A stretch of DNA of 64,000 bases from Symbiodinium natans. Its lineage: Eukaryota > Sar > Dinophyceae > Suessiales > Symbiodiniaceae. Both the position numbers and the translations under genes were made by a program. The stretch's first letter is position 1; every line of letters starts with the position of its first letter. The stretch is from positions 563,501 to 627,500 of the forward strand of contig CAJNDS010002082.1 in assembly GCA_905221605.1 (NCBI GenBank). Direction: 5' to 3'. Shown here one piece after another: positions 19,416 through 30,942 of the stretch. Under the pieces are notes generated by a model, which saw nothing but the letters and a program-made list of their open reading frames with translations, was not told the origin of the DNA and did not search any database.

Positions 19416-20172
19416 ATCTCAAGTGGTTCGCTCTGTTCCACTTCTTGCAGAACGGGGAACATGTCCGCGGCGGCGCTGCCAGGCCGAAGCCCGGGACCGA
19501 GACAGAGAGGGTGGGAGGGGGGTTCTTAGCGCCTGGATGCGTTTGGCATAGATTCTCTCGATCCTTGGCAGCTTTCTTTTGTGGCGCAAGCTGAAACTGG
19601 GGGCCGTTGGGAGCTCTTGGAGTGAGCACGACTCCGTACGATACAGCACCTTTTCAGCTCTCAGAAGTACATGTTTTGTGCTGACATGAGAAGCGACTGT
19701 CAAGTTAAGCCGAGAGGGTGCCGAGAGGAATGCCACCTGCATGCTTCCGCTTCCAACACTACAAAACACTGCCTCTTTGCCGCCTCCTTAGCCCCTTAAA
19801 AGCCCCTTAATCTTTTCTGTTCCAGGCGTGGGCACCAGCCCAAGCTCTTCGAGGCTCATTAACGAGTGGGTGACACGTTCAAAGCGTTTCTCCCACATAT
19901 TGTACATACGCTCACCAGATCTCAGACGCCATCAGCATCAGCGCCCCGTCCGTCGCATGGGCGATGGCCTCGGTCTGCAGCCAATTGTCTGAAGAGTTGG
20001 GAACAGAGGACGAGACCCCTGCGCCCGAAACTGCTGGTCGTTCCAACCATAGGAGGTGTCCACCTTGGCAGCCCGACTACAGCACAAGCAACAAAGACAA
20101 TGGGCCTGCAGAAGCACAAGATAAGCTGCCGCTTGCACTCAACTTGCTTTGCTGTGGCAGCGAAAAACAATG

Positions 20173-23100
20173 CTAATCAGGGTGGGAGGACGTTGCTGAG
20201 ATCACTGCCGTGCCGCTCTTGATAACCTGAGCGTGTTCGACCACCTCCCCTGTACGGTCATCCTGCCCAGCATCAAGGAAGAGAACTGGGATCCGAAGAA
20301 TCTGAAGATGACAACTGTGGCATACTGTAGCTGCACTGTAGCTTGCAACGGACTTGAGCCAGGACCGCCTTCACTAGAACCACCATGGCACCGTCGTTGT
20401 CGTGCTGGTTGCAGTAGTTCGTCGCCTGTAGTCACACAGGTAGTCGATAAAGTGCAAAGCCTAGCCGTTTTGACTCCAGCGGCCTCGAAAAATTGCAAAA
20501 ACTGGGAAATGTTGGAGCTAAGGCATCTACTGAGAAAACAGTCAAGAGCTGGCCAGCGGCAAAGTACTCGTAGCCGTGCTGGACCTTATCTCAGAGAGAG
20601 AGAGAGAAAGAGAGCGAAAGAGAGAGACGGAGAGAGAGAGAGAGAGAGAGGTGTAAAAAAGAGACTTGAGGGAGAAAGGAAGAGGGTTTGTTTTGATGCT
20701 GTCACTCACGCTCTCTCTCTCACTGTCGCGGAAGAAGAGGAACCGGCGCACTCGTGTGCGCGGATGATCAACTTCAAGGAGTTCCGACGGTTGAAGTCCT
20801 GACACATGGGCGCCGGGCTCTGGAAAGATAAGTCCTGAGCATTCAAGACGTGCCATTGACGCTCTCAGAAAGCTCCTGTAGATGCCTTCCCAGCCCAGGG
20901 TCTTTGGGGCTAAGGACTCTTGATTTCACCCTTCGTCCCTTCGTGCCTGCACACGATCTGGGCCGAAGCGGCAGGTGTTCTTGCCCCTGGGAGAGACCTG
21001 AGAGTTGCACGAGCCACTTGCGCAAGCACAACATAAAGAGGCTGCGCTTTTGCCTTGCTTCACAAATCGACCCCCCCCCCCACCCCTTGCGAAGCCGATT
21101 AACGCACCCTGGCAGGGAGCTGAGCTGAGGGCATGAACACCCAGGACTTGGTCGTTGTCCGTGGGATCCGACCTCCGAGAGCGGCAGCTGGCAGATGGCC
21201 CAGATGGGCGAAAGCAGCTGGCAAACCAGGGAACTGGACCAGAGCGCATCGAGCACCATGCGGTCACGACGTGTGGTCCTGGCGAAGACAAGGTCAAACA
21301 AAGGGGCCCCAAGCCTCCATGAGGAGAGCGTCCTTTCGTTGATCTCACCGACCACCTGCCGCAGGGCCGCAACAACGCAGCAATCCCGAGGCCCTGCTCC
21401 GTGAAAAATCTCTGCGCCAAGAACAGCTTGTAGGCTTGTAGCTCCCCTTGTCTCATTACTCCCTTCACCTTCATTCGCCTTCATTTCGACTTCATTTCGC
21501 CTTCACCTTCTGGTTATTCTTATTGCTTCTTCTGCTTCGTCACGGCACCTGAATCGGCTTGGGGATCCCTCGCAGGTCGTCCAAGGACATGATGGAGTCG
21601 CCGATCCCGCCATGGATGCAGAGGATGGCTCCTTCACACGAGGCTACGCAGGGGGAGAGGGGAGTTTGAGCTAGAACCGCTACAGTACCAGTGCCCACGA
21701 AAAGGAACAGTGAAGGATTCCTGGCCCAAGAGATGATTTCGGACCCCGAATAAAGGCTTTGCAGCGATTGGTAAGCGGCATGTGTAAAGTTTTAAAGTGA
21801 TCTGGCAGCCATTTTACCTTCCGTTTCTCTGTGCTGGTGATGAGTGTTGGCTGCCCGATGGCGCCGGAAGCTTGGAAACCCTTCAGGCTGGAAGTCCGAG
21901 GGCCTTCGCTCCCTGTGGGGAACATGAGGGCGCCGGGGCATTTAGGTTGAAGATCATTTGGGGGGGCAAGATGGGGCAAGTGTGAGAATGCAGATGCGCA
22001 TGCAAGCCGCCAATGGTCATTGTGCTGTGCCTTGAGCCCCGAGAAGCCGCCCGGTCGAGAGAGACACGACTCGGAGAAAAGACTCCTCCGCTGTCCTCTC
22101 CTCCTTTTTTGACGAACATGTCACATCAAAGTGACAGAAACCCTTTCTGCACACTCGACGAAGGCACTGCTGCTGGTCAGAAAGCCCGGGCCTCGAGGAA
22201 CAAGTTTTCTGCTACTTCGCGCGCTTCTTTGGTTCCCGAAAGCATCGCGAACATAGAGTGAAGTGCATAGAGGTAAGCGCATAGAATGAAGTGCACAGAG
22301 TGAAGTGCGTAGAGAGTGAAATTCATAGAGTGAAGTGCATAGAGTCTAGTGCAAGAGTGAAGTGCACAGAGTGAAGTGCACAGAGTCTAGTGCAAGAGTG
22401 AAGTGCAGAGAGTGGAATTAACGAGAGTTTACTACAATATAGTAGAATTTACGAGATTTTAGTAGAATTTCAATACAATTTAGTAGAATTTACGAGATTG
22501 TACTGGAATTTTGTACACTTTCGTACCCAATCATACATGTTTAATTAAAATTCATCTTTTGAAGGCCGTGGGTAGAGTTGTCGTCATCGATCGGGATTGC
22601 AACCCTCTGCGGGTTTCGGCGTGTTTTTACGTTTTTGCGCCGCAGACAACCCTCTGCGGGTTTCGGCATGGTCGCGGTGCTAAACCCTGGGTTTTCGCGC
22701 ATTTTTTTTGCGCGCGCGTCAACCCTCTGCGGGTTTCGGCGTGATCGCGGTGCCAACACCCTCGTGTTTTTGTTTTTTTTGACATACAAACGCAACCCCT
22801 CTGCGGGTTTCCGCGTGGTAGAGGTGCTAAATCCCTCGTGTTTTTGCGTTTTTGGCCGAAATCATCCTTTGTGGTACAAAAGTAGTACTGTATAGGGCCG
22901 GCGCGCGCTTTGAAGACCGCCCCCCTCTCAAAATCCTCCTCTCTGGTACAAAATTTAGAAATAGCAGTGTCTATACTGTCTAGGGCCGGTGCGCGCTTTT
23001 TCTTGGGCTCTCAAAATCCTCCTCTGTAGTACAAAAGTAGGGCTTTTGGGAACGCCCTCCTATCAAAATGCTCCTCTGCAGTACAAAAGTAGTACTGAAT

Positions 23101-26100
23101 AGGGCCGGCGCGGGCTTCTAGGACAGCCATCGAAAATATCGCAAAATATCGTGGGACTCGAATTCCGGGGCCTCGAAAACCTCGCAAATATCGTGGGACT
23201 CGAATTCCGGGATGTCGAAACCGTCGCAAATATCATGGTGCTGGATTCCGGTGTGTCGAAAACCTCGCAAGCATTGTGGGACTCGAATTCCGGGGCCTCG
23301 AAAACCTCGCAAATATCGTGGGACTCGAATTCCGGGGCGTTGGACTCGAGTGTGAATGCCATGCAGTTGAAGTGCATAGAAGTGCAATGCACAGAATAAC
23401 GCTGTCTTGCGAAAAGGTCTTGCGCGTGCGCCAGCCCAAGAGATAAAAAGAGTCGCTGCTTGGAATCCTGCCTGCACCACGAATGCGTACGTGCCTGACC
23501 TTGATCTTGCGACATGCTCACTTCGGCCAGATTTCACTGTGCTTCTCTGCTCTTTTCAGCTCAAGGTCTTCTTGCCAACCTCGCTCTTCTGTCCTTTTCT
23601 TTGCAATGACACAATCGAACAAAATCCAGCTGGACTACACGTTTGGGCTTTCAGTCCTGAGGGGAGACCTGAAACGGAAGTTGGGGGACGAACTCACTGC
23701 CTGAATTCCTACATTCTTTCGAGCCAAGGAGGCTTGGAGTCGCTTGACTAATGCAATTCCACTTCCCCCGGACATGTCTCAGAAGCACCTCGACGCTGTC
23801 TTGCGAACAGGCGAGTTGGAGTACGCCCGCCCAAGACAAAAAAAGAAACATCACTGCTTAGAATCCTGCCTGCAGCACGAAAGCGTATGTACCGTCACAC
23901 ATTAAACCGGACGCTCTACATGCGTGCATGCTGAGTTGTTGCTTCCTGAAAGGCGCTATGGACTTGGACTTCAGAGCGACTGCCGATGATGCTTGTGGCT
24001 GACGGCTCTCGCGTTGGATATTGTTGTCTTTTCTTTCATGTCTTCGCGTGGATTGGACGTGTACAGCCGAGTCGGGTGCACACAAGTGAAGTTCATACAG
24101 TTGCTCAAGTGTATTAAGTTGAAAAATGTCGAGTTCCAGTCCGTTAACTTCAGATGTATTGAATTCCAATGAAGTGTGTAGAGTTGACCACAAGTGCATG
24201 GCATTCAAGTCAACACACTTGAATGCCATGCAGTTGAAGTGCATACAAGTGCAGTATACAAGTGAGCGTGCAACCATATAAGTGCATACACTCGTCCAAG
24301 GGCGTACAGTTCGAGTGCAACACACGGCAAATCGATGCTTTCGGGGCAATCGTCTTTTAGTGATTTTTTCATCGCGCCGTTTTTTCATGACACTCTTTAG
24401 AGTCACGTCAGAGCCGTTCTGGAGTGTTCTTGAAACTTCTTTCTTTAAGTTTCTGGCTGCTGCCCTCAGTGCCCTCAGGTCTCGATTCAAGCTCATACAC
24501 ATGCTCAAAGCAGTTGTGCATAGAAGAACTCCGACAACGAGGATTTTGTCGCAGAATCAAGAGCTCGCCGGCGGCCGGCTCGATATGCTTCATTTGAAGG
24601 GCAGGCAAAGGCCGGAAAACATCGTCGAAGATTTCGCGGGCTCCAGGGAGGCACGCCAAGAGGCCATACAATCGGAAAAGCGAGATATGTTCCCCCCCCC
24701 CCACCCAGCCCCAGTTCTGCATATTTAGCATGCTTCGTGGAGGGCATGACCCATCAACATGAAGGCTGCAAAGATGATAGCAAATCAGCCAATCCTTCCA
24801 CCAAGGCGGCTATGGGCAGGAACTCGAAGACGTCATTGACCCCTCGGCCGCGCATACGGCTACTATGGCTACTGGCTCGATTTGGCCCCCCAAGGATCTG
24901 AGGTTTGGGCGCTCCCAGATGGCGTCGCCATCCCGCCCGAACTTCCTCTCGGAGTCCAAAAGGCGGCTTCAGGCTTGTAGGGGGTGCGGCTGCTTCGGGT
25001 CATTTGGGAGCATTGCGGGAACATCGGGAACGCTTCTTCTCTTAACATCCTGGCACAGTCGGCGTGGAAGCCGTAGTTCACGTTCATCAGCCGATCCTCG
25101 AGATGCGAAAAACGGGCCACAGGGCTTCGATGGGCTTCGATGGGCTTTGTTGGGCTTTGATGGGCTTTGTTGGGCTTTGTTGGGGTGTCTTTTGGGCTTT
25201 CGTTTCGGAGGCGGTTTGAGTGGGTTTGGGAATGTTTGGAGTCTCCGGCTCCTCGTGATTCCCGCGGATCAGGAAGACTCGCTGGGGGTAGAGGATCTTC
25301 AGCGAGAAGAGGAGGGAGACGACGTCACACCTCAATCGCTCTTCAGATGCTTCAGCTGCTTCAGCTGCTTCTGCAACCAAGGCCGGCCCGGGTAAGTCCC
25401 GCACGAATAGGCGCCTCGGTCGACGAAGTCACCCAAGAACACCTGGCTGCCGACAGCGAGGAGGTGTATAGTCTTTCACTTAGAATACGGAGAGCCCCTG
25501 GCATAGTTCATCGAGAAGATGTCCCCGCGACGCTTGTCCTCTTCTGAAAGGGGGCCATGTGAAAAGGCGCACGAAGAGTGAGCATCGCTGAGCATCGCTG
25601 AGCATCGCTGCCGGCCAGGAGAAGGCGTTGAAGAACTCCAGGAGGTCCAGCAACTGCCTGAGGCTCTCAGCGGGGAGCACGCGAAAAAGCAGAGAAAAAG
25701 CATGTCTCCACCCAAGGGAATGAATGATGCTTCTGGATACTTCTTGCCTTTTTCAGGACTCGTACATGTCGTGCTTCAAGTGAGGAGTTTAACGGACTCT
25801 GCGTTCGCACTCTGCTTGTTTAGGCCAGAGGGGCCCATGGATGTCTCCGTAGACCCGGCAGGGGAAGCGCACCTCTCCACGCCAAAAGAAGCACATCCTA
25901 CAGATAAGACAGAGCGAGCCCAAACAAAGAAGGGCTCTCTCTCTCTCTCTCTCTTCCTTCTTTCCTCTGCACATAGCCCCCTAAGGCCCCAAGGGGCCGC
26001 CCCCCAAAGGGCGGGCTCCTTTATGAAACAAATCGAGGTGTCGGTGGGAGTTGCTGCAATGAGAAAGTGACTACTTAACCCCTATTCAACTCAGCCACTG

Positions 26101-26380
26101 TGTTCTTTCTTTTCTCTCCATCTCTCTTTTCAGGTTCTGATTGGCGATTCTGTGGCAACATGACCGTAGTCGAGAGGGTTGTCTCAAAAGAGGGCCTCCA
26201 CCAAGGAATCTTCCTGACGGAGAAGCTCGACCACGGTGTCGCCTTTGGGAAAGCCCCGGGAAAACTTCTACACAAACGCAGGAGGAGAGGGAGCTCGGGC
26301 ACTGACACAGGAGGTAGAACTCACGCGTGCTGACCAGCTGGAGGTTGTACCTCAGGAGGGACGACTTGGCACACAGTGCC
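20173..26380 (-). CDS. PPP Ser/Thr phosphatase, PPKL/BSU1-like
   Basis: Catalytic part of a metal-dependent PPP phosphatase, rebuilt from 18 exons in matching phase: 26301-~26378, 26196-26242, 25835-25872, 25612-25657, 25503-25538, 25405-25442, 25252-25330, 25037-25096, 24911-24947, 24795-24842, 21544-21631, 21240-21278, 21133-21172, 20947-20979, 20748-20798, 20531-20584, 20369-20425, 20173-20262 (stop TAG 20173-20175). All signature motifs are present in order: YGDIHGQ, GDFVDRG, RGNHE, HGGIGDS, LWSDPTDND, FGPDRV, IIRAHEC, TVFSATNYC. HGGIG rather than HGGLS points to the PPKL/BSU1 branch, whose members carry N-terminal Kelch repeats; none were recognised upstream, and the 5' exons beyond 26380 are unresolved. 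The catalytic ligands look intact, so activity is expected. Donors: 10 GC, 3 GA, 4 GT. Confidence 0.88.
22252..22520. repeat. Tandem repeat, ~14-15 bp units, then AT-rich repeat
   Basis: Units of the form agagtgaagtgcata/cag repeat from 22252 to about 22415, with higher-order copies that include the phrase agtctagtgcaagagtgaag. This passes into an AT-rich segment where gtagaatttacgagatt occurs at least twice. Located inside the 3.2-kb phosphatase intron. Confidence 0.85.
22600..22866. repeat. Tandem repeat, ~73-bp unit, 4 copies
   Basis: Copies starting near 22600, 22647, 22720 and 22793 share caaccctctgcgggtttc followed by a variable T-rich stretch (tttttgcg or similar). The first unit is truncated to about 47 bp; the later two are 73 bp apart. 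Confidence 0.85.
22866..23125. repeat. Diverged tandem repeat with tagggccggcgcgcgct core
   Basis: About four copies of tcctctgtagtacaaaagtag-like sequence (near 22866, 22934, 23018 and 23069) and three copies of agggccggygcgcgct (near 22893, 22981, 23101). Spacing is irregular (50-90 bp), suggesting an older array. Confidence 0.8.
23130..23345. repeat. Tandem repeat, 42-bp unit, 5 copies
   Basis: Starts near 23145, 23187, 23229, 23270 and 23313, spaced 41-43 bp. The unit carries tatcgtgggactcgaattcc followed by ggggcctcgaaaacctcgc, with the third copy most diverged. The 42-bp period is a multiple of 3, so open frames on both strands give repeating peptides; these are artefacts. Confidence 0.9.
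23346..24310. repeat. Duplicated segments around a 16-bp inverted repeat
   Basis: A block at about 23402-23505 recurs in diverged form at about 23796-23900 (both contain cttgcgaa, then aatcctgcctgca and cacgaa). A second block, gaatgccatgcagttgaagt, occurs at about 23355 and again at 24221, so the two halves look like a segmental duplication. The second half also contains gaagtgcata-type units like those at 22252. Confidence 0.7.
24195..24232. repeat. Perfect 16-bp inverted repeat, 6-nt loop
   Basis: The left arm tgcatggcattcaagt (24195-24210) and right arm acttgaatgccatgca (24217-24232) are exact reverse complements separated by caacac. It could extrude as a cruciform or fold as an RNA hairpin in the intron transcript. 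Confidence 0.9.
25123..25185. repeat. 10-bp tandem repeat inside a phosphatase intron
   Basis: About six copies of tgggcttyga/tgggctttgt lie within the 155-nt intron between the exons ending RGNHE (25252) and starting DRLMNV (25096). The repeat makes up about 40 percent of that intron. Confidence 0.85.
25576..25608. repeat. 10-bp tandem repeat (agcatcgctg) x3 in an intron
   Basis: Three exact copies lie in the 73-nt intron between exons 25612-25657 and 25503-25538 of the phosphatase gene. Confidence 0.85.
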
Positions 26381-26459
26381 CCTCGCTTTTGCCTTGCAAG
26401 AAATCCTCTTCGCAAGGCTTCGAAAGCTGCGAGATGCTGCGAACCTCCATTCAGCCATG

Positions 26460-27200
26460 GGCTGATTCTTCTCGTTGGACCTCAAGTCTGGGGGCAGCCG
26501 CCAAGGGTTTGTTACGAGTAATTGCAAACTCTCCTTCTTTGCTCCTTCTTGGAGCTGCAGCTCGCTGCCCGAAGAGCTTTTGACAGGGCCCCTTGGCCCG
26601 CTGCATGTCCATAAGGCTCCTCACCACTCGAAGAGCCAGGGCCTGGAATCGATTCTTTCGTGGGGAAAACTTGCGGGGAAGGCGCCCACACTGCATGTGT
26701 ATCATGTGTGAAAAACGTCTGAAAAGCGAGGGAGAAGAGTGGTCAAGAGTGGTCCCAAGAGCCGGCCTGCACGGCACCTGGAGCAAGCGGCGGTGAGAGG
26801 GTTTTGGGGGCAAGTTTTCAGACATCTGCCACATGCGAGCTTTCCCAGCCTTGCTCGCCCCAGCGATACCTCTAGCAGTGTCTGTCCGAAGCGGCTCTCG
26901 TCTTCTTTACACCGATGCTCCTTCATTCCCATTGCTTGACTATCTTGATTCGGCTCCAAGGCGCTCGGAGAGCCCCCGAGACCTCCAAATGGAGGAGAAT
27001 GATACGCAATGCAACCAGGCCCCGAGGTGTGGCAGCTGGCCTCGAGAGCGCCTTCGAAGGCAGAGAAGGCCTTAGGACAAGACTGGGATTCAGGCAATGA
27101 ATCCGCTTTTCAGAGCAAAATGCTGAAGTCTGTCCCTCCTTGAGAGGCGCACATGCCATTGCTAGCTCCAGCAGCGTTGAGGTTGCCGCTCGCCTTGACA
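26460..27200 (-). CDS. Candidate 5' exons of the phosphatase or another gene
   Basis: Upstream of the phosphatase catalytic exons the minus strand reads protein-like stretches at about 26690-26470 (RKNRFQALALRVVRSLMDMQ) and about 27190-26940 (STLLELAMACAPLKEGQTSA). Kelch-repeat signatures (paired Gly, spaced Tyr/Trp) expected for PPKL are not evident. Splice joins were not resolved, so membership in the phosphatase gene is only inferred from strand and position. Confidence 0.3.
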
Positions 27201-27938: not shown

Positions 27939-28153
27939 GAAGTGCCTTGGCGTTGGCGAGCGCATCTGCGTGGCTCTCGCCCCGCAGCTGCTGAATGTGC
28001 TCAATCATCTTCGCCACCTGGCCAGCACTCTCAGATCTTACCGGAACCATACCAAACGAAATCTACAGCGCGCACGGCAAAGCCCAGAGGATTCGGAGCC
28101 TCCTCCACCTCCAAGCGGCCATTGCGGTTCTGATCGTAGTACAAGAAGATGAA
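27939..28153 (-). CDS. EF-hand exon pair
   Basis: Exon 28100-28153 encodes FIFLYYDQNRNGRLEVEE, a complete EF-hand calcium loop (D-Q-N-R-N-G-R-L-E-V-E-E) with an entering helix. A GC donor (GAGGAG then GCTCCG) joins in phase 0 to an exon starting at 28017, VAKMIEHIQQLRGESHADAL, which gives the exiting helix. The pair lies between the stop of the helicase (28451) and the phosphatase catalytic exons. It could be the N-terminal calcium-binding part of the phosphatase gene or a separate small gene; the sequence does not decide between them. The downstream donor is GC at 27946 or GA near 27939. Confidence 0.65.
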
Positions 28154-28450
28154 CTGCATCCTCACACAGCTGCGTTGCACGTTGAAACTCAGGCGTCGCT
28201 CTATTTTGGTTTCTTTGTTGGGTGCAACTGAGAATCCTCAGCTGGCCGGAGGAAGAATCCAGCTTGTGCGGCGTCAGTGGGCCTCACGCAGAATGCTTCT
28301 GATGCCAAAAGCAACAAGACACTGACAGGACACGAAAGCACATCAGGCATTCAAAGCCCCCCCCTTTTTCTGGTTTTTTCAGAGCTCACTGCTTCTGTGT
28401 CGTGTACGTTGCATCAAGCGCTTTCAGAAGCTGTTCCTCCGTGAGCAACT

Positions 28451-30942
28451 CTAACCTGGGCCAGGGTCTGAAATGAAGTCACCAACGACGCGCATCAGAA
28501 CAAAAATCTGCCATTGCAAATTTGCACGGACCGGCACTCCTCGTCGAGCCCTGATGCGTTCCCCTCTTTTCCCCAGGTGTTGGCCGGGCCACTGCTTCAG
28601 GGCTCCGACGGCCGTGGGGTTGCTGGCTTCGCATCCAGCCACGAGACCACGCTCCTGCACAGCTCAAAAAAATCAGTGCATCTGTAAATCTGTAAAACAC
28701 ACGCGCACACGCGCACACACCTAACGCAGACTCTCACAAGGCTCTGGTGCTGCACAAGGCGAGTTCTCTCCTGTGCCCAAGTGAGCCAAGGCCGCCAGGT
28801 GTGCTCGTCCGACGCCAAGGTGTCGAAGTGCCCCACCACCACCAAACCCCGCCTTGACCTTGTGATGGTCACGTTCAGTCTCCTCGGGTCGCCCAAGAAA
28901 CCCACTTTCCCGGATGTGTTGGCTCTCACAGTGGAGACGATGATCAGGTCCTCACACAGCTTCGCATTGAGTTTCGCATTGAGTTTCGCATTGAGTTTCG
29001 CATTGAGTTTCCCTGAGTTTCGTTGGGTTTTTCGCGGACGCTTCCATGATGCACGCGACTGCGGGGTCGACATTTTGGATGTGCTGTACAGAAAAGAAGC
29101 TATGTCAGCTATGTCCTTCTCACGGCCTTGGAAGCCGTCAACACTGCTGACCTCCACCAGGGCCACGCCCACGGCCCCCGCGGCGGCCCTCTTCCCTGGC
29201 GGGGGGCAGCCCAGGCGGCGGCGGATGAGCCGGGCCTTGAGACACACGGTTAAGACGGTTAAACTCGCCCCCAAAAACCGAGAAGCACCAGTGGTTCATC
29301 TTGAACGTCCGCTAAAGATCCACAGGCACCTTGCTCCTATTCTTGCCTCACTACCCCTTCCTATATATGCACCATGTCAAGAAACCAAAGAAGCAGCACA
29401 AGTGACTTGGAGACTTCCTCGTGATTTTCGGGGCTTCCGGACTTCCGGAGCTAACCGCCTCTAGGGTCTCGTGGGACTGGCTTGCGGAGCAGGGTGTGGG
29501 CTTTGAGGGAAGCTTCAGGCTCTCAAAACGGGGGCCTGCGCAGCGTAGGGTGTGATGACGCCAATCTCTGTCGGTGCGATGTCATTCCATGCAAGCGCAC
29601 TGCCCAACAATGCCTCCACAGCCTCCACCTCTGTTTCATTGAACCAGGATGTTCCCTCAGACTTTTCGGCGCCCTGAACAGGAAGAAAGGTGACGGGGGC
29701 TTCAGGCAAAGGCCAGGCAATGCCTTGTGGGGCCTTCCTCATGGCGCCAGATACTCCAGAGCGCAGCTTGCCATTGTAGCTGGCTACAGCAGGAAATGCG
29801 GCGATCGCAGGATGCATCCGGTACTGCACGTCCAGCATAAATGGCTCCACCCCATGGGATGACAGGCGCTCGAAAAGGGAAGTTCCCAAGCCTTCGACAT
29901 CGACGTCGACATTGCTGATGGTCGGGGGCAGCTGCCGGTGGTCACCCACGAGGGTCACCACGCCATCAGCCCGCATCTTCATCAAGGGCACGAGGACGGC
30001 CAGCTCGGTTGTCTGGCCAGCCTCGTCAATAAGGACGCAGCCAAAGTCCTTGCCTTGAAGCACCGGGTGATCTGCACCGGCACAGGTGCTGCAGACCACC
30101 TCGGCATCCTCCAGGATGGCCCTCTGGTGAGCAAAGTGCCCCCTGTCCTCTGCATTCGGATCCTGGGCTTTGGCATCCTCCCACAGGGGCATGGAACTAG
30201 GAAGCACTCTGAAGCACTGCAAGACTGCACCCAAAAAAAATGAAACGCTGACTGACTTGAAGGCACCCCTTGCCCCGAATATAGAAGTGATCCTTTGAAG
30301 GTCTTGTGTGGTGTGGGCTCCCTCTGCCTTTACCATCTCGAGAAGATTGAACTTTTCGAGGTCATAGCGCGTGGCTTCTGGCCGGCCAATCCGAACGACT
30401 TTCAGCCCAGCCTTTGCGCAGCCCGCCGTCAGATTGTCCACCTTAAGTGTCTCTTCGGCTCTACCAGACACATCACCAGAGGGGCGTGCGCAACAAGCGA
30501 GTGGAACTGGGCTGGACGTTATGCCGCTTGAGTAGGCTGAGCTGCCGCAATATTGCTGTCTGCACAGCACAGCACTGGCCCGCGCCGTGCAGCCGTCCTT
30601 TACTCTGAGGCCAAACACACGAAAACCTATAGCCTACACAAGGCTATTTATACTTATACAGTATGCGCCCCTATTATCCCAACTACGAGTATTAAAGTCC
30701 CCTCGCGGCCCCAGGCACCAGCCGCGGACCAGCAGCAGCGCGGTGGTCGTCTTCCCGGCCCCCGGCGGGCCCTGGATGAGCGTGAGCCGCCTGCTGGGAA
30801 CTCTGAACACTAAAGAGCAGCCCACTCAGAGGGCAGAGTCTCCCTCAAGAGAAGTGTCTCTGAACAGAGGTGTGTCTCTCACAAGCATCTTTCGCCTGCA
30901 GCCTGCCGCCAGCAAGGCCTCTCTTTGAGAGTCGTTGCACTC
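28451..30942 (-). CDS. UPF1/SMUBP2-like SF1 RNA/DNA helicase core
   Basis: Superfamily 1B helicase core rebuilt in phase from eight exons: 30896-30942 ([13 protein letters not shown]-motif), 30707-30790 ([17 protein letters not shown], motif I), 30546-30597 ([10 protein letters not shown], motif Ia), 30334-30441 ([19 protein letters not shown]), 29536-30177 (CVLIDEAGQ motif [13 protein letters not shown] motif III, VQYRMHP motif IV), 29116-29235 ([14 protein letters not shown]), 28771-28950 ([20 protein letters not shown], then VTITRSRRG, motif VI), and a last exon 28654 to the TAG at 28451-28453. The ATPase motifs are intact. Such helicases unwind RNA or RNA/DNA and act in nonsense-mediated decay or related surveillance. 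Donors: 4 GC, 2 GA (29116, 28771), 1 GT. The 642-nt exon 29536-30177 is an outlier among short exons. The exact C-terminus is less sure. Confidence 0.87.
28961..29009. repeat. 12-bp tandem repeat (ttcgcattgagt) x4 in a helicase intron
   Basis: Four copies lie inside the GA-AG intron between helicase exons 29116-29235 and 28771-28950, right next to the 3' splice site. The unit is a multiple of 3, giving a spurious KLNA-repeat frame. Confidence 0.88.

Follow-up and report, generated by a model that had tools for sequence, protein, structure and literature searches.

Donors of a putative PPP-family phosphatase gene of Symbiodinium natans follow a published, genome-wide relaxation of the second donor base

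In a 64,000-nucleotide stretch of the Symbiodinium natans genome (contig CAJNDS010002082.1, positions 563,501 to 627,500; hereafter the window, in whose numbering the gene is described), a gene on the minus strand appears to encode a PPP-family Ser/Thr phosphatase and is interrupted by 17 introns, most of which seem to begin with GC or GA. Judging from the sequence, these are ordinary spliceosomal introns of the Symbiodinium lineage in a working-looking phosphatase gene, a reading to which we give a probability of about 0.94. At least 10 of the 17 introns, and 13 by the best model, appear to be non-GT. The relaxed donor rule is a published, already known property of the whole genome, and this gene is an average case because its 4 GT, 10 GC and 3 GA donors match both the published rates and control genes of the same genome. 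It is a clean single-gene example of that property, and software that predicts genes on the assumption of GT donors would break it up.

Published S. natans gene models have GT donors in 23.6%, GC in 58% and GA in 18.4% of introns, with AGG acceptors in 97.1% (PMC10666404, Table 2). At these rates 4.0 GT, 9.9 GC and 3.1 GA donors are expected among 17 introns, as against 4, 10 and 3 in the target gene (chi-square P = 0.996). An earlier reading made from the sequence alone (the sequence-only reading) had described GC and GA donors as known from Symbiodiniaceae, with which the published rates agree, and had presented the gene as a strong case for a relaxed 5' splice-site rule. The relaxation of the second donor base stands, but the case is neither strong nor special: 13 non-GT introns in 17 are expected from the published rates and agree with other genes of this genome. 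The donors of the target gene look as if they had been sampled at random from those of the whole genome.

The phosphatase gene and its introns

20173..26379, minus strand: catalytic part of a PPP-family Ser/Thr phosphatase gene, with 18 exons and 17 introns (predicted from the open spliced frame, phmmer and Pfam)

When spliced at AG acceptors, the frame runs uninterrupted to a TAG stop codon (20173-20175) and contains the motifs GDIHG, GDFVDRG, RGNHE, CIHGG and RAHEC. Exons measure 36 to 90 nt and introns 58 to 323 nt, with the exception of intron 10 (3163 nt). In a phmmer search against solved structures, the best match of the catalytic domain was Arabidopsis BSU1 (2e-77; next class, 3.3e-62), with calcineurin, PP1 and PP2A ranking below it, and the sole Pfam match of the protein was Metallophos (4.5e-35). 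The GDI insert ahead of the GD-VDRG motif, SDPT-ND-VLG and FSATNYC are shared with the BSU1/PPKL class across the catalytic domain. The gene looks like a working PPP-family phosphatase gene whose catalytic domain is nearest to this class. An N-terminal Kelch region is a feature of BSU1/PPKL, and no Kelch match was found in the five single open reading frames (ORFs) of the window that were scanned. An ORF on the minus strand (28034-28159), which precedes the first target exon by about 1.7 kb, gave a weak EF-hand_6 match (E = 0.0064), which is under the curated cut-off; if this ORF belonged to the gene, the gene could be an EF-hand Bsu1, a form without Kelch known in other groups according to an excerpt of PMC8249667.

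The sequence-only reading, which numbered each donor by the last exonic base with the dinucleotide following it, had given 13 of the 17 introns as GC or GA, and all 17 dinucleotides are indeed as it listed them. G is constant at +1, while +2 is C, T or A. The acceptors of this hand-made model were picked by frame and homology, with AG/G (the solidus marks the junction) favoured in the choice; all 17 end in AG, and AG/G is found at 16 of them with intron 8 as originally placed or at 17 with the alternative listed here.

26243..26300, minus strand: intron 1, GC-AG/G, 58 nt; donor not fixed by homology
25873..26195, minus strand: intron 2, GC-AG/G, 323 nt
25658..25834, minus strand: intron 3, GC-AG/G, 177 nt
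25539..25611, minus strand: intron 4, GC-AG/G, 73 nt; blind alignment favours a GC 3 nt further on
25443..25502, minus strand: intron 5, GC-AG/G, 60 nt
25331..25404, minus strand: intron 6, GT-AG/G, 74 nt
25097..25251, minus strand: intron 7, GA-AG/G, 155 nt
24946..25049, minus strand: intron 8, GA-AG/G, last exonic base 25050, not fixed by homology; originally placed at 24948-25036, GA-AG/A
24843..24910, minus strand: intron 9, GC-AG/G, 68 nt
21632..24794, minus strand: intron 10, GA-AG/G, 3163 nt, many short direct repeats
21279..21543, minus strand: intron 11, GT-AG/G, 265 nt; donor loosely fixed, blind alignment has last exonic base 21550 and GG
21173..21239, minus strand: intron 12, GT-AG/G, 67 nt
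20998..21132, minus strand: intron 13, GC-AG/G, 135 nt
20799..20946, minus strand: intron 14, GC-AG/G, 148 nt
20585..20747, minus strand: intron 15, GC-AG/G, 163 nt
20426..20530, minus strand: intron 16, GT-AG/G, 105 nt
20263..20368, minus strand: intron 17, GC-AG/G, 106 nt; outside the homologous region, placed by frame and AG/G only

For intron 8, the GA class assigned by the sequence-only reading holds, but its donor at 25037 was probably misplaced by 13 nt; 25050 is the better last exonic base (AG/G vs AG/A), and the donor is GA either way. The long intron 10 carries, at 22241-23893, several short direct-repeat families, including repeat units of 42/83 nt and of 73 nt.

Placement of the splice sites and control introns

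If the gene were mis-modelled, its real introns would be GT-AG introns at shifted sites, with small indels in the protein. We regard this as very improbable. When both ends of introns 1-16 were moved together by up to 18 nt, no length-preserving GT...AG pair appeared for any of the 12 GC or GA introns among them. When in-frame indels were allowed in all 17 introns, with donors and acceptors shifted up to ~45 nt into the intron and scored against BSU1, every GT alternative scored lower in 10 of the 13 GC or GA introns (deficits of 6 to 55), intron 9 having no GT alternative at all. Finally, a blind spliced alignment of 20001-26800, with BSU1 as the only query, GT, GC, GA and GG at equal cost, other donors costing 5 more, and AG required with the following G unscored, still yielded GC and GA donors. 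At an intron penalty of 8 it placed 12 of the 17 donors exactly (11, 11 and 9 at penalties of 11, 14 and 18), chose another GC for intron 4, another GA with an AG/G acceptor for intron 8 and GG for intron 11, put intron 1 in the wrong place and stopped before intron 17; its acceptors were AG/G in 15 of 16.

Control introns from the same genome were obtained by the blind-alignment method at a penalty of 10 from seven PPP loci (L037-L041, L043, L044) and 11 dynein motor loci with several exons (L051-L061). The queries for the dynein loci were L049 and L050, two intronless dyneins, to which one solved paralogue was added in the case of L058-L061. From 176 non-target introns, two of L042, a near-copy of L041, were removed; 87 of the remaining 174 passed a flank-score filter with AG/G, and three of these with other donors (one GG, one AG and one CC) were dropped. 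The resulting 84 comprise 45 GC, 29 GT and 10 GA introns, in the same order as in the target gene (GC > GT > GA), whose 13 non-GT introns of 17 do not stand out from them (Fisher P = 0.57). Many of these introns sit in paralogues and are non-independent. With the AG/G filter off, GG donors made up 8 of 73 in a reliable control subset, which gauges the placement error. The pair L041/L042 consists of near-identical PPP-like genes with GNLVG and RGKFE in place of GDxHG and RGNHE, and is possibly catalytically dead.

Several points weigh against the reading of these introns as an average sample of genuine GC, GA and GT introns. Each target junction is predicted from homology. Introns 1, 8 and 17 are not homology-fixed, because they lie at alignment edges or in a variable part, and for them GT alternatives exist whose scores against BSU1 equal or exceed those of the model, which is also what speaks for mis-modelling. 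The 84 control introns also show a slight departure from the published proportions (chi-square P = 0.04, with GT up and GA down), a deviation that may come from the filters, from the shared ancestry of the dynein paralogues or from the harder placement of GA donors.

A pseudogene whose splice sites had decayed from GT is, in our judgement, an even slimmer prospect than mis-modelling, and nothing in its favour came to light. The spliced frame lacks an in-frame stop, the catalytic motifs are intact, 16 or 17 of the 17 acceptors are AG/G, and the donor mix is that of the published genome average. A search of the genome (759,417,921 bases in 2543 contigs) returned no close paralogue and no close or processed copy among the 20 matches listed, in which only the gene's own exons exceeded 60% identity; the best non-self match among them had 36% identity over 244 residues, with short matches of up to 59%. 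A processed copy, which the sequence-only reading had named as possible evidence against its claim, is thus missing from these matches, although this has no bearing on expression.

Spliceosomal RNAs, donor sequence and the GA class

A scan of three loci for small nuclear RNAs (snRNAs) found U1, U5 and U6, together with the first 56 positions of U2, which is cut by the locus end. In the genome, U1 gave 18 matches at E up to 10, of which 11 were over the curated cut-off, and its 5' arm was AAACUUACCUGG in 8 of the 8 copies read. U6 retains ACAGAGA. We take the functional segments of the U1, U2 (5' part), U5 and U6 RNAs found here to be canonical. A changed U1 or U6 was rejected as the cause of the relaxed donors, both being canonical in the copies read; given its canonical arm, U1 as read in those copies is therefore not the source of the tolerance at +2. 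With canonical segments in U1, the 5' part of U2, U5 and U6, the introns would be removed by the standard major spliceosome, and proteins of the spliceosome, or a dependence of splicing on the 3' site and the exon, would then account for the tolerance. The PROCN domain of Prp8 was found within one 922-codon open frame.

The snRNA genes are clustered (L009-L016). Along some stretches of contig C479, U6 copies are spaced ~3.8 kb apart and adjoined by U1, and one cluster (L016, including 1209-1367 on the minus strand and 445-552 on the plus strand) holds U1, U5, U6 and 5S rRNA together. Clustering of snRNA genes has been reported in S. minutum (PMC4083563).

Donor sequences beyond +2 were compared between 101 homology-fixed introns (84 control and 17 target) and 370 G-first decoys inside introns. 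Donors matched the U1 complement from +3 to +6 no better than decoys (1.17 vs 1.20 of 4), and their duplexes with U1 nucleotides 1-11 were not stronger (-2.74 vs -2.66 kcal/mol, P = 0.3). Nor did donors surpass decoys in pairing with the ACAGAGA of U6. By composition, the donors have C at +4 in 53/101, C at +5 in 46/101 and C or G at +9 in 85/101. In the target alone, C at +4 (9/17) and C or G at +9 (15/17) recur, and C at +5 shows no excess (4/17); in 19 fresh introns from four loci outside the discovery set, the counts were 8/19 for +4 C (P = 0.056), 9/19 for +5 C (P = 0.019) and 18/19 for +9 C or G (P = 0.0001).

On this basis we offer, as a speculation that we ourselves think is probably wrong, that recognition of 5' splice sites in this genome dispenses with the base pairing that U1 normally makes on the intron side. 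The donors would instead bear a different, weak pattern, (A)G/G[C,T,A]NCC followed by C or G at +9, the GA class being coupled to GA-starting exons as though the insertion site had supplied the +2 base. Evidence against such reading of donors is their stronger pairing with U1 nucleotides 1-20 (-6.81 vs -6.18 in decoys, P = 0.01) and with the U5 loop (-5.13 vs -4.36, P = 0.004), and slightly more in-register matches to CAG/GTRAGT (3.68 vs 3.28 of 9). A scrambled-arm control was reversed (donors -3.00, decoys -3.81), and base composition may explain part of the difference between donors and decoys. No prior report of the donor pattern or of the U1 comparison was found among the titles and abstract openings listed in the literature searches. 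If true, canonical U1 together with donors whose intron side is unlike its complement would make this lineage a natural test of other 5' splice-site determinants.

The GA class bears on a further explanation, that the introns originated by introner insertion, with the ends of the inserted element setting the donor dinucleotide and a GA donor being the duplicated GA of the insertion point. Introner elements are known in Suessiales (excerpts of PMC10522408 and PMC11114475), and exons that follow the acceptor start with GA after 10 of 12 GA-donor introns vs 9 of 70 others, where the third target case needs the alternative intron 8. Once the target is left out and four loci are added, the coupling is 8/10 vs 7/74, the GA introns of L043 and L053-L058 being among the carriers. 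Against this, four GA introns (L053, L054, L056, L058) share, as judged by eye, a single homologous Lys/Asp position and are non-independent, donor and exon show no match of a general kind outside the GA class (32/82 at +2 with 26.5 expected, permutation P = 0.09), and pairing between intron ends is marginal overall and below average in the target. We consider an introner origin doubtful, and more so than the speculation on donor reading. The samples behind the donor pattern and the GA coupling are small and related, and both count as leads.

Repeats and pairing at the intron ends were also examined. By the definition in the Methods excerpt of PMC10666404, introners have inverted repeats (8-20 nt) and direct repeats (3-5 nt) at most 30 bases from both intron ends. 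General target-site duplication was unsupported by the +2 match given above. Pairing of the two ends with each other, as in hairpin introns, was marginal: 99 introns gave permutation P values of 0.046 in the shortest windows, 0.28 and 0.18 in the middle two and 0.035 in the longest; without telomere-like motifs, the shortest windows gave P = 0.047, and the longest gave P = 0.48 once introns with TTTAGG or CCTAAA were removed. Terminal inverted repeats had no clear support, with a longest common word of 4.82 vs 4.65 in mismatched pairs, reached by 21 of 200 shuffles. Of the same 99 introns, 14 have the telomere-like TTTAGG within their first 40 nt, 11 have CCTAAA within their last 40 nt, and 4 have both; such introns are found in L041, L043, L054, L055 and L057, among others.

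Neighbouring features and comparison with known systems

Elsewhere in the window, a superfamily-1 helicase-like exon was found at 29815-30054 on the minus strand (Pfam AAA_11, E = 1.7e-12). The minus strand carries 35 of the best 40 coding-like ORFs listed for the window.

The target gene fits the relaxed-donor introns of Symbiodiniaceae, with GC > GT > GA, an invariant G at +1 and AG/G near the acceptor rate of 96-97%. It shares its donor proportions, its AG/G and its many introns per gene with the GC-AG and GA-AG introns of Symbiodiniaceae and Polarella (PMC10666404, Table 2), and its differences from published S. natans introns are within sampling error. For the family, a review gives 25-74% GC-AG or GA-AG introns (PMC11453091). 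By Table 1 of PMC7789003, with species assigned by column order, GT-AG introns and GC-AG or GA-AG introns amount to 26% and 73.95% in S. microadriaticum, 48.23% and 51.77% in B. minutum, and 65.38% and 25.30% in F. kawagutii, while Table 1 of PMC9412976 gives 36.6% GT, 43.6% GC and 19.8% GA for Cladocopium goreaui.

Amoebophrya, a dinoflagellate relative, is similar in that the majority of introns in two strains are not GT-AG (excerpt of PMC7789003). According to the same excerpt, however, its splice sites are highly variable, some intron ends form hairpins and U1 was not found, whereas the introns described here have a constant G at +1 and AG/G, alongside a canonical U1. The copepod Eurytemora affinis also has GA and GG donors in common use, but non-GT introns account for ~12% of its introns (excerpt of PMC5714493), as compared with about three quarters here.

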